Part shown: positions 43,741 to 48,848 of the stretch, in pieces
Position numbering within the stretch: position 1 is the stretch's first letter
Layout of the letters: every line of letters begins with the position of its first letter
Origin: Phycisphaeraceae bacterium
Lineage (GTDB): Bacteria > Planctomycetota > Phycisphaerae > Phycisphaerales > Phycisphaeraceae
DNA: 64,000 bases
Assembly: GCA_028277745.1 (NCBI GenBank)
Contig: JANQFR010000045.1
Span: forward strand, 1 to 64,000
Reading direction: 5' to 3'
The notes under the pieces: model-generated
Databases searched by the model: none
What the model was told of the DNA's origin: nothing
The model's input: the letters and a program-made list of their open reading frames with translations, nothing else
Program-made: the position numbers and the translations under genes

Positions 43741-44973
43741 CTAATTGTGCGTGCGACGCAGATATTTCCAGGCGATGGCCGCCCCGCCCAGAAACAGGCC
43801 CAGGCCAAGAAGTGTGGTCAAAAGCACACGCCAGCCGGTAGATTCGTTTGCGTAAGCCTCCGCGTTCGTGAGAGAGGATTGTTCCGACCCCGTCACAAGT
43901 TCAAGGTCCGTGTTCGCCGGCTTGGCGTCAGGTGTGGTTTTCGGCAAGGGTTTGGCTTGGATGGACAGCGATTCTTCGAGGACATGGTCGATGTCCCTCT
44001 TTCGGATCTCGGGAGCGGTGAAGTAGTTCACGCCCGCAATGGCGTCGACGACTTCGGTTCCAGGTGGAAATTCGATATCGATTTCGTCGTGCGTGACGTT
44101 GCCGACAGACGCATCCAGTAACTCTATCTCCCAGACGGTAAAACGCCCCCCATCACTACGCCAGGATCGAATGGCGTCCTGAACACGTGATGGCAGCCAG
44201 ACACCGTCGATCTGCTTTGCGTCATGGATCGTGACGATTCGCTCATGCCATTCAGCGGCGTTTTCCTTGTTGGTTTCGACCATACGGACCATCATGAATC
44301 CGCGGCGTGGATCGAGCTACATGCGCCTTGTCGTCCCCACGGGGCCTGGCGCTCCCATACTCACTTTAACCAAGCCATCGGGGGCGTCGGCGTCAATCCG
44401 CCAATCGTCCTTCGATCGAAGCGCGTGGGCTAAATAAGACACCGGCTCACCCGCGACTTCTCCGCCAAGAAGAAACAGATATCGGTTGTGTTCGACACGG
44501 TCGTGTTGGGAGTCGATGCGTGCGACCGGATGATTGACCTGGCGGTGTGTCATCAAACCCTTCATCCGGCCTTCGTGAGCGTCGAACGTGGTGGTCGCCT
44601 TGAAAAGCGGCGCGGTGTCGCCGGCTGGCGTGTGTTCAATGGACATCTTGTAGCTGTTATCGATGACACGATATTCATTGAGACGAGCGCTGGCGGGTCT
44701 GACGTTTGACAGGGAGCCATTGTCCTCCCGATCCGCGGCGCCCAGCCGACTCCGGGTCGTCACGCGGAGGTTGGATAGGAGACGCTGGCGGTCGAGCAGG
44801 ACTTGCTCGATCAGTTCTGCACGCGTGGCTTCAGGCAAGCGTGACAGTTCACGCGAATCGATCGTGTTGTTTTGAGCCGAGGAAGCGTGTGGATGGATCA
44901 CAAGCATGAAGAACGCGAGAGCGATTCGACGGGCGGTCATGCCGCTGGTTTTTTGCCGTGGCGGTCGCGTCAT
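43741..44973 (-). pseudogene. Secreted membrane-anchored protein split by an in-frame TAG
   Basis: Two open frames, 44973-44317 and 44295-43741, lie in the same reading frame and are separated only by TAG (44317-44319) and seven sense codons. Read through, the protein has about 410 residues: signal peptide (ALAFFMLVIHPHASSAQ), a soluble domain, the junction MGAPGPVGTTRRM-stop-LDPRRGFMMVRMVETN, and a C-terminal helix (LLTTLLGLGLFLGGAAIAW). VTIHDAKQIDGVWLPSRVQ resembles lipoprotein-sorting-like domains. TAG could have arisen from TGG by one base change. The second frame could also restart at the ATG at 44295. Function is unknown. Confidence 0.75.
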
Positions 44974-45039: not shown

Positions 45040-45678
45040 TCAAGAAGGCGGGTTCTGGGCTGCCCGGCGGAGGTGCTCGGCTGCGTCCCCCATGACCTTC
45101 TCATCGTCGCACTCCCTCAGGGCCAGCAGATCGGGCTCGTCCGCCCCGATCTCACTCACGTGGCGGATGAGCAGTTCCCGCTTGATGATGCCTTGATGAA
45201 CATTCACGTAGAGATGGCCGTCGTCGCGTTGCACGACGGGGGCCAACATGAACTCGCCGTGGCGTTCGTACTCTTGCTTGAAGCGGGTGAGCATGTCGGG
45301 CGATCCGGGGACGCCGGACAGAGGGTGCATCCGCATGGCCCGGCCGATGCTTCGCCGGTCCTCATCGTTTTCATCGAGGAATTCATTCAGCGATGGGGAC
45401 AGGCGAACGGTGTAGCCGTCGGTCTGGCCGGGCGTCTCGCCTTCGAGGACGGCCACACGCAGGCCGTCGTTCTCGTCGGCGTTGCCCGCCGCATCGATCC
45501 AGACCCGGGAGAGGTCGACGCCTTTCATCCAGTTGCCGAACACCAGCCCCATGATCGGCGGCATCTCGCTCGAAGGATGCCACTGATAGCTCGTCGCCAT
45601 CCACACGGCCTGATCCCAGAGCGGGCTTTCGCAGAAAGCGTGAGCGGCTTGTTCAGATTCGGCGCCCATATAGCCCAT
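45040..45678 (-). CDS. Protein of unknown function
   Basis: The 212-residue soluble protein has ATSYQWHPSSEMPPIMGLVF near the start and a charged helical C-terminus (LLALRECDDEKVMGDAAEHL). It has no signal peptide or membrane helix. I do not recognise a family. It follows the gene at 45695-46342 by only 16 bases, so the two are probably co-transcribed. Confidence 0.65.
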   Translation of the reverse strand: MGYMGAESEQAAHAFCESPLWDQAVWMATSYQWHPSSEMPPIMGLVFGNWMKGVDLSRVWIDAAGNADENDGLRVAVLEGETPGQTDGYTVRLSPSLNEFLDENDEDRRSIGRAMRMHPLSGVPGSPDMLTRFKQEYERHGEFMLAPVVQRDDGHLYVNVHQGIIKRELLIRHVSEIGADEPDLLALRECDDEKVMGDAAEHLRRAAQNPPS

Positions 45679-45694: not shown

Positions 45695-46342
45695 TCAAGC
45701 CATTTCGCGTAACTGATCATTTAAATGCCAGCCCTCGTTTCCGTCATCCCCGACAAAAGCCCTTCCTGTGGGAATTCCGTCTTCGTCGCATGTGGTTTGA
45801 AGCTTTTCAACAAGGCGGGTTTGGTTTTTATCCGCCACAAACATCGCCAGGTCGCTCTCATCGTGAAACGGGAAATAGACCCACTCGAAATGTGGCATCC
45901 GTTTGGCTATGGCTGGCCATACTGAGTCGATAATAGGCGTCATGTCCGCGGGAAGCTCTGTTTCAATGCCATCAAGCACCTCAGCTTTCAGGCTGGCGTT
46001 AAATAGAAAAGTAAAATGACCGAGTTTGGCGAAACCACCGTGCGCCATCAACCAATTCTGATTGGCTTTGCTCGCCCAAATGGCTGGGTGCTTTCGCACA
46101 TCCAACTCCACCATCTCGCCTCCGTCCAATCCATCATCCGGCGCATTCGCCCACCAGGCAATCTTGCATCCCGTGACTTTGGCCACGTTACGGAGAGAAC
46201 GGGCTCTCGCCGGCAGCACTAAATTGGGATATGACCCAACCGGCGGTGTAAGTTCGCCGAGGTATTCGTCATAAGAATCTGGGTCACTAGGGATTATTCT
46301 TTCTGGCGTCATAGCGGCGTTCCACATCTTCATGACCGCCAA
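45695..46342 (-). CDS. Protein of unknown function
   Basis: The 215-residue soluble protein has a mixed alpha/beta pattern, including YDEYLGELTPPVGSYPNLVL, CKIAWWANAPDDG, ASKANQNWLMAHGGFAKLGH and FEWVYFPFHDESDLAMFVAD. There is no signal peptide. Base composition is lower in GC than the core genes. No family is recognised. It lies between two other unknown genes in the same direction. Confidence 0.65.
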   Translation of the reverse strand: MAVMKMWNAAMTPERIIPSDPDSYDEYLGELTPPVGSYPNLVLPARARSLRNVAKVTGCKIAWWANAPDDGLDGGEMVELDVRKHPAIWASKANQNWLMAHGGFAKLGHFTFLFNASLKAEVLDGIETELPADMTPIIDSVWPAIAKRMPHFEWVYFPFHDESDLAMFVADKNQTRLVEKLQTTCDEDGIPTGRAFVGDDGNEGWHLNDQLREMA

Positions 46343-46391: not shown

Positions 46392-47219
46392 TCAGTCTTC
46401 CCAATCGCTGGAGAAGAAGAGTTCAAGGTGTGGGACACAGGCTGCAAATACGCTGAAATCTTCAACACCCCTGCCAAAGGACACCACTTCGTGCATCACA
46501 TCCATGGAGTCGTTTGTCATCAAAATTGAAGTGGCGTCATACTTATAAAAATAACCCAAGAAATAAAGCCATGGCGCCGACGCCAAGCTGCACGCTTGGA
46601 TGCGGACGAGCTCACGGGTTGGGTCTCCATGATGCCTGGGATTCAGTAATTTTGCCAGTGCCCCGGGCGCGATCTTAACCGGGCTAACTATCGTCGCCAT
46701 GGCATGATAACCGATTACGCTGCGACATATCTGAGAAAACGGATCTTCGGAGGCGGCTTGATAGCAACTGTAACTTTCGCCTAAGCTCAATTGTGGATCG
46801 ATATATCCTAAAGCAGGCGATACTGTCGTGTCATCCCATATTTTACTCTTACCCCCGACGATCTCCTCGTCTTCAGGCGGAGTCTTTGTGTAAATAAACA
46901 AATCTAGTTTATTTTGATCGGCGTAACGATATACGGCTACACCTGTACGCTCCCACTCGCACAACTGAATCCAGATGTGTTGAGGCAGGTGCGTTTCATC
47001 GCCGGCGTTAATTGTGGCTTTTGGGTATCTGGAATTCAAAATTTTCATCCTGGCTTGTCCATACTGCGTGGTTGGTGTGGATGTGTCCAGCCGCATGGTA
47101 GTGTGGCCAATAGATGCCCGGTTGTCTCGCTCCATCATCGTTGCCGTCGCAGGGCCGGTGTCAACCATGTTCGTGGTTTCATGCGCAGGGTAGAAGAAGG
47201 TCTTCCCAACGACAATCAA
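46392..47219 (-). CDS. Protein of unknown function, low GC for this genome
   Basis: The frame gives 275 residues. The first 45 have poor coding character, and an internal ATG may be the true start. The core has QHIWIQLCEWERTGVAVYRY, LDLFIYTKTPPEDEEIVGGK, and a helical C-terminus with ACSLASAPWLYFLGYFYKYD. It is visibly more AT-rich than its neighbours, which suggests acquisition from elsewhere. No family is recognised. Confidence 0.6.
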   Translation of the reverse strand: MIVVGKTFFYPAHETTNMVDTGPATATMMERDNRASIGHTTMRLDTSTPTTQYGQARMKILNSRYPKATINAGDETHLPQHIWIQLCEWERTGVAVYRYADQNKLDLFIYTKTPPEDEEIVGGKSKIWDDTTVSPALGYIDPQLSLGESYSCYQAASEDPFSQICRSVIGYHAMATIVSPVKIAPGALAKLLNPRHHGDPTRELVRIQACSLASAPWLYFLGYFYKYDATSILMTNDSMDVMHEVVSFGRGVEDFSVFAACVPHLELFFSSDWED

Positions 47220-47254
47220 CGCATCATTTCAATTTCGGTCGCGCGATCGAAAAA

Positions 47255-47280
47255 GAACCCACTCGCATGCGAGTGGGTTC
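47255..47280. terminator. 26-base perfect palindrome
   Basis: GAACCCACTCGCA and its exact reverse complement meet without a loop. On the minus strand it follows the tpx terminator, and on the plus strand an A-run precedes it. It may be a second terminator or a protein-binding site. Confidence 0.5.
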
Positions 47281-47307
47281 GGGGTGACGTTTTGAATTCC
47301 ATGGCGT

Positions 47308-47338
47308 GAAGCCCAGGGATTCGGAATCCCTGGGCTTC
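47308..47338 (-). terminator. Terminator hairpin of tpx
   Basis: A 14-base stem (GAAGCCCAGGGATT / AATCCCTGGGCTTC) with a 3-base loop begins 10 bases beyond the tpx stop in the direction of transcription. There is no clear U-run. Confidence 0.65.
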
Positions 47339-47347
47339 GGGTTCGGA

Positions 47348-47866
47348 TTACAGCGCGGCCTTGGCGGCGGCGATCGCGGGGGCGTAGTCGGGCTCCTGGG
47401 CGATCTCGGGGACGAGCTGGGCGTATTGGATCGTGTCGTTCTTGTCCACGACCAGCAGGCAGCGGGCGAGCAGGCCGATCTCTTTGATCCGCAGGCCGTA
47501 GTCGACGCCGAAGGTGTGGTCCTTGAAGTCGGAGAGGCATTCGACCCGGTCGACGCCCGCGGCGCCGCACCAGCGATTCTGGGCCATGGGCAGGTCGACG
47601 CTGACGGTGAGGATGACGATGTCGTCGCCCAGTTCGGCCGCCTCCTCGTTGAACCGGCGGGTCTGGGTGTCGCAGACCGCGGTGTCGAGCGAGGGGACCA
47701 CGCTGAGGATCTTCACCTTGCCGGCGTAGTCGGCCAGCGTCTTGTCGGACATGTCGACGGCTTTGAGGGAGAAGGCGGGGGCCTGGTCGCCGACGTGCAG
47801 TTCGTCGCCGAGCAGGGTCATGGGGTTGCCTTTGAGCGTGACGGCGGCGGCGCGTTCGGTGGGCAT
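47348..47866 (-). CDS. tpx: Thiol peroxidase (atypical 2-Cys peroxiredoxin)
   Basis: Tpx reduces peroxides using thioredoxin. The 172-residue protein has the family start VTLKGNPMTLLGDELHVGD, the peroxidatic site VVPSLDTAVCDTQTRRF (Cys65) and the resolving site DRVECLSDFKDHTFG (Cys110), the Cys spacing typical of Tpx. It appears monocistronic, with a hairpin just past its stop. Confidence 0.96.
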   Translation of the reverse strand: MPTERAAAVTLKGNPMTLLGDELHVGDQAPAFSLKAVDMSDKTLADYAGKVKILSVVPSLDTAVCDTQTRRFNEEAAELGDDIVILTVSVDLPMAQNRWCGAAGVDRVECLSDFKDHTFGVDYGLRIKEIGLLARCLLVVDKNDTIQYAQLVPEIAQEPDYAPAIAAAKAAL

Positions 47867-47975
47867 CGCGGGTTCCTTCCAATGGGTTGGGTGAGCGGCG
47901 TCGCATCCGACGCCGGGGTGAAGCCGGGCATTCTAGGCCGGCGGAGACGGCGGGCAAGGCCGGGGTCGGCGGGCC

Positions 47976-48848
47976 TCAGTCGACGGGCTCCATGACCAAC
48001 GGGTCGGTCTGCGGCTGCCAGCCCAACTGGTCCGACACCGCGGTGGTGTCGATGAGCTGGTCGATCTGGTCGACGGGTTGGCGCAGCGGGATGTGGGTGT
48101 AATAGCGTTGGATGATGTTGGCCACGCCGTGTTGTCCAAAGTCGACCCGGCCCGAGGGCAGGTACTGGCGGTAGCCGGGCGCTGCTTTTTCCAGGGCCCG
48201 GGCGACCAGGCGCGCCGCGTCGTTGATTTCGAGATAGGCGAAGCATTCGTTGATGGACAACCATTTGGAGGCCAAGCGGCGGTCCGGGCGATTATTGAGG
48301 TCGGGCAGGCCGGGCAAACGGATGGCGGTGGCGCTGAGCTGGGGGTGTTGCTGGGCCAGGTGTTGAAGCATCTGTTCGCCGAGCACCTTGCTGAGGGCGT
48401 AAGCGTTGGAGGGATTGGGCGGGGCGTCGCCGTCGATGGGCAGGTAAGGGAACCGACAGGTGATGTTCTGCTCCCGCTTCTTGTGCCACCGCCGGTGTCC
48501 GGTATGGGAGATCGCCTGGATCGAGCTGATAAAGACCAGGTTGTGGACGCCCAGATCGACGGCGGCGTAGCAGACATTGGCGTTCATGGCCAGGTTTTCC
48601 CGCAGCAGCCGCTGGGCGGGCGTCACCGCGTAGAAATGGGGGTGGTTGCCGCAATGGGCGACGGCTTCACAGCCCTCGACGAGGCGATATGTGGCGATTT
48701 CGTCGAGCAGGTCCGCCATTTCGAGCCGGAGCGGGGCGTCGGGCCGGTACGCACGGTCGGTGCCCCGCACCTCGTGGCCGTGGGCCAGCAGCACGTTGCA
48801 GACGGCCGATCCGAGGCGGCCGGCGGCGCCGGTGACCAAGACCTTCAT
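47976..48848 (-). CDS. NAD-dependent epimerase/dehydratase family protein
   Basis: The 290-residue protein is an extended short-chain dehydrogenase with VTGAAGRLGSAVCNVLLAHG at the start, VFISSIQAISHTG for the catalytic Ser region, and YALSKVLGEQM for the Tyr-x3-Lys pair. Family members act on nucleotide sugars. It stands alone, and the 340-base region upstream is shared with the divergent secretin gene. The substrate cannot be predicted. Confidence 0.88.
   Translation of the reverse strand: MKVLVTGAAGRLGSAVCNVLLAHGHEVRGTDRAYRPDAPLRLEMADLLDEIATYRLVEGCEAVAHCGNHPHFYAVTPAQRLLRENLAMNANVCYAAVDLGVHNLVFISSIQAISHTGHRRWHKKREQNITCRFPYLPIDGDAPPNPSNAYALSKVLGEQMLQHLAQQHPQLSATAIRLPGLPDLNNRPDRRLASKWLSINECFAYLEINDAARLVARALEKAAPGYRQYLPSGRVDFGQHGVANIIQRYYTHIPLRQPVDQIDQLIDTTAVSDQLGWQPQTDPLVMEPVD

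Follow-up and report, generated by a model that had tools for sequence, protein, structure and literature searches.

A single in-frame amber codon in a Phycisphaeraceae accessory gene of patchy distribution: a probable young nonsense pseudogene

An amber codon that stands alone inside an otherwise open reading frame may separate two neighbouring genes, break a single gene, be read through, or reflect an error in the sequence. These possibilities are raised by a locus in the window analysed here, a stretch of 64,000 nucleotides from a Phycisphaeraceae bacterium, where the first-pass annotation had described two same-phase frames parted by one TAG at 44317-44319 and seven sense codons. The coordinates and the phase proved right; the gene is encoded on the minus strand, where a single frame runs from the ATG at 44973 to its end at 43741 and is broken solely by the TAG at 44319-44317. 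Read across this codon, the translation comprises 218 residues ending in ...GTTRRM, the TAG as codon 219, and 191 further residues beginning LDPRRGFMMVRM..., closed by a terminal stop that is also TAG (43743-43741). The N-terminal part (44317..44973, 218 codons and the internal TAG) has a signal-peptide-like start followed by the opening portion of a protein of the LolA-like family, and the same-frame continuation (43741..44316, 191 codons and the terminal TAG) appears to hold the domain remainder, an FPPGT motif, a linker, a C-terminal transmembrane helix and a basic tail. The seven sense codons LDPRRGF (44296..44316) lead from the internal TAG to the first downstream ATG. In simulations (first-order Markov, same composition), the 191 codons past the TAG remain open in only 0.58 % of cases; the open frame exceeds chance, and it is homology that settles the question.

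Relatives of the encoded protein are continuous across the stop site, which identifies the interrupted frame as one protein rather than two. A paralogue in the same genome (contig C56) is a single uninterrupted frame of 402 aa that spans both halves, and in a BLASTP comparison with this paralogue the read-across protein gave one alignment over residues 54-391 (E 3e-14). Compared separately, the C-terminal piece matched this paralogue with an E value of 8e-14 and 26 % identity, while the N-terminal piece matched the front of the protein (paralogue residues 34-143, E 0.006), in the matching order. The nearest outside relative (G703, 525 aa) is likewise uninterrupted and covers both halves, and a tandem-domain paralogue (C19, 713 aa) and a relative from another genome (G050, 730 aa) are both unbroken at the stop site. 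On sequence comparison, both halves of the split gene belong to one protein family, as the first-pass annotation had supposed in proposing that a single amber codon divides one protein. Its own check, a search for orthologues that consist of two genes, was run on relatives, and none of the family matches examined in a profile search of 397 genomes of the class (about 117 matches, with members in 74 genomes) was split into two genes. The reading as a pair of distinct genes, for a secreted N-terminal protein and a membrane protein, takes its appeal from the ATG at 44295, located 21 bases past the TAG, where a mechanical ORF of 184 aa opens. However, no relative is divided in this way, the second piece lacks a signal peptide, the LDPRRGF codons ahead of it show no clear ribosome-binding site, and the cut falls within a conserved motif, all of which makes such an arrangement very improbable. 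In annotation, 43741-44973 should stand as one interrupted gene, not as two proteins.

The internal TAG (44317..44319) lies, according to the translation and the family alignment, inside the motif [W/Y]-x-D-P-x-R-G-[Y/F], which across the family takes the form [W/Y]-x-D-P-x-[R/K]-G-[Y/F] with a semi-conserved tryptophan. Relatives carry sense codons at the stop column, and in the 74 aligned rows, which include a few duplicates of one locus, tryptophan is the commonest residue (27 rows), followed by tyrosine (12), threonine (6) and leucine (5), with others scattered. In G703, the segment RRLWLDPNRSFMTVR stands opposite RRM-stop-LDPRRGFMMVR of the window gene and places a tryptophan at the stop column. 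The change from TGG to TAG is one transition. Since tryptophan is both the commonest residue at the column and present in G703, TGG to TAG appears to be the likeliest origin of the stop, in agreement with the original proposal, although tryptophan is not certain as the ancestor because the C56 paralogue has serine and the G050 relative glutamate at this place.

The intact protein would presumably have been an exported one in which a LolA-like domain lay between an N-terminal signal sequence and a C-terminal membrane helix, with a basic tail at the end. Searches of Pfam and NCBIfam returned no significant family for the split-gene protein, and LolA_like (PF17131) gave no match to it, one relative scoring 13.9 bits against a gathering score of 30. 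The best match among profiles of solved structures, the outer membrane lipoprotein-sorting protein 9tp6 (E 0.19), is a hint at most. The putative LolA assignment, which is no claim of membership, draws on weak profile matches of relatives. Structure prediction from the single sequence of the read-through protein gave a mean pLDDT of 38.7 and a terminal helix at 369-409 in a poor model, and a search for literature on LolA-like proteins in planctomycetes yielded nothing useful. The stop lies inside the conserved motif, and the FPPGT motif and the membrane anchor lie downstream of it and are lost on termination. In the predicted 218-residue product both the anchor and the later part of the domain would be missing, and this speaks against a secreted form that is of use; the suggestion that the TAG separates a secreted from a membrane-anchored product is disfavoured by a short product that ends inside the conserved domain.

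How TAG is decoded in this genome bears directly on the fate of the gene. The search for a suppressor tRNA proposed at the outset found none with anticodon CTA among the 47 tRNAs detected in a draft that is about 95 % complete, and the best match to pyrrolysyl-tRNA synthetase (PylS) scored 27.4 bits versus a cut-off of 178, with sub-cutoff cross-matches of the same sort seen in most control genomes. The pair that marks pyrrolysine-encoding genes, pylS and tRNA-Pyl(CUA) in one genome, was not found here. A release-factor-1-type gene is present, at 400.9 bits just under the prfA cut-off of 423. In a 464-kb sample of the genome, TAG ends 69 of 383 coding-like frames, and the terminal stop is TAG in both the window gene and an interrupted paralogue on contig C36. 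Taken together, the tRNA search, the PylS result, the counts of TAG ends and the terminal TAGs establish amber as an ordinary stop in this genome. A first scan of the 464 kb found three TAG cases with coding onward in frame, each explained by an ordinary next gene that has its own start. In a second scan, with settings for low-GC3 genes, most of the frames returned were antisense shadows, and three split genes were convincing: TAG interrupts the window gene and the C36 paralogue, and TAA a TIR-like gene. Interruptions are thus not limited to amber. Genome-wide amber recoding was rejected by these scans of TAG-ended frames, and a candidate split by TGA (L110:785) looked unconvincing. The TIR-like gene (FISHASDDKERFVVPFAQGLRANGIDAWLDKWEI...; L122:7155-8183, contig C84 at about 47155-48183) has low GC3 and is likely a further accessory gene that has been broken; it may belong to a defence system. 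Low-GC3 accessory genes in this genome have been hit by nonsense of more than one kind, TAG in the C36 paralogue and TAA in the TIR-like gene.

A functional amber codon, at which an amino acid is sometimes inserted to give a little full-length anchored protein, perhaps keeping expression low, would agree with the persistence of coding statistics past the stop, where identity to the C56 paralogue is found, and with reports of bacterial in-frame stops under purifying selection (PMC7918605). It would also agree with two family members that each carry a single internal TAG. In the C36 paralogue (C36:35149-36369, minus strand; L017:1372-2592) the stop follows 276 codons (EGNHIEA-stop-TKIFEIRDIKFN), and the frame beyond it is intact and includes a membrane anchor; the other member belongs to another genome of the class (G837 contig C55, L102:1006-1806; GKA-stop-MALTWEIQEI). 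These two TAGs occupy neighbouring alignment columns, 277 and 276. Their near coincidence was noticed after the fact and concerns poorly conserved columns, and should be taken as a lead rather than as evidence. The window TAG, however, is placed elsewhere, the other two lying about 57 model positions downstream of it, and its absence at the same place in relatives speaks against programmed read-through. The lack of a CTA tRNA, the PylS matches no better than those of most control genomes, and the use of TAG as an ordinary terminator even at the end of the split gene itself also weigh against any reading of this codon as sense, which is unlikely.

Internal stops among the class matches were found only in the window gene, the C36 copy and the G837 member. 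Further interrupted relatives had been suspected in G802, G807, G788, G873, G839 and on G837 contig C147, but these stops are natural protein ends, which in this family fall shortly past the FPxGT region. A family member on G837 contig C147:1300-3300 (L162) seemingly has no open in-frame N-terminal part and has possibly decayed too. That all three internal stops are TAG might suggest that the anchored LolA-like family tolerates or uses a leaky UAG that holds the full-length protein low, two of the stops being in neighbouring columns. However, TAG makes up 36-50 % of nonsense changes in the mutation spectrum, three TAGs out of three arise by chance in about 8 % of cases (0.36 x 0.42 x 0.50) under a simple mutation model, and the TIR-like gene is broken by TAA, points that also weigh against read-through of the window TAG; a family-wide leaky codon would be a distinctly long shot. 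Proof that the TAG is read would make this a case of amber read-through without a dedicated suppressor tRNA, worth following.

The interruption could also stem from a sequencing or assembly error or a mixture of strains, the true base giving a sense codon. The difference is a single base, and the genome is a draft of 99 contigs with 1.74 % contamination. Against this, there are very few real split frames among the 383 coding-like ends in 464 kb, from which it follows that base errors seldom create nonsense codons; nevertheless, two of these frames fall in one small family. An error of this kind is improbable.

The genomic setting points to an accessory gene. GC3 is 0.65-0.67 in the split gene versus 0.86-0.96 in conserved neighbours, and three adjacent minus-strand ORFs have no Pfam match and GC3 values of 0.80 (45040-45678), 0.56 (45695-46342) and 0.55 (46392-47219). 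Together with the split gene, they look like a low-GC accessory or acquired stretch placed between high-GC3 conserved genes. A strong terminator-like hairpin on the minus strand (47255-47280, 11 pairs with a T tail) marks the point where the low-GC stretch meets a peroxiredoxin-like gene. The distribution of the split gene is patchy: a sequence search of the taxonomic family (51 genomes) matched its protein in just one other genome, and no close orthologue was found in the whole-genome collections searched or in two scans of genome contigs. Profile A1 proved too diverged for a degenerate-pattern scan. It is likely that the split gene is accessory, dispensable and evolving fast. No Rfam element was found near the internal TAG. 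Under the mutation model, about 0.42 nonsense changes are expected in the split gene per 1 % divergence; because there is one lesion and no frameshift, neutral divergence since inactivation would be roughly 2 %, with an upper bound near 11 %, indels being ignored in this estimate.

The reading that best accommodates these observations, to which we assign a probability of roughly 0.73, is that a low-GC3 accessory gene of patchy distribution has recently become a nonsense pseudogene, and the young pseudogene offered among the first suggestions is upheld as such. The ancestral accessory gene of this planctomycete-type bacterium would have encoded one exported, C-terminally membrane-anchored LolA-like protein. 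It would then have been broken recently by one nonsense substitution, the likeliest change being TGG to TAG at the semi-conserved tryptophan. Termination at the TAG would leave a 218-residue fragment, and because this fragment would end within the domain and have no anchor, the gene is probably non-functional; no second lesion has been seen so far. The interrupted gene has uninterrupted homologues, TAG acts as a stop in this organism, and the truncation of the domain removes conserved parts. Set against the pseudogene are the frame and codon statistics past the stop, which are still intact and which read-through would predict equally, and the finding that all internal stops in the family are TAG.

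The resemblance to LolA-like proteins (PF17131, LolA_like; outer membrane lipoprotein-sorting proteins) is a weak, sub-threshold profile similarity seen in relatives around the x-D-P-x-R-G-[YF] motif; the protein of the split gene differs in having no significant Pfam match and a C-terminal membrane anchor, and is far from the curated models. Belinky and co-workers reported frequent in-frame stops in the genes of bacteria, some of them subject to purifying selection, the criterion being the same stop in orthologues together with low dN/dS (PMC7918605). This criterion is not applicable to the window gene because no close orthologue was found. In the Paenibacillus sulfotransferase family (PMC7918605), one of those considered as potential read-through cases, as in the window, an in-frame TAG occurs in an otherwise intact-looking gene, but there it is found in several species at one orthologous place with low dN/dS, whereas the place of the window TAG is unique to its gene. 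With the nonsense-interrupted genes of bacteria, that is, young pseudogenes, the window gene shares one in-frame stop, an intact frame, its accessory nature and an intact paralogue in the genome; its inactivation is what we infer, and it differs from them in nothing of kind.
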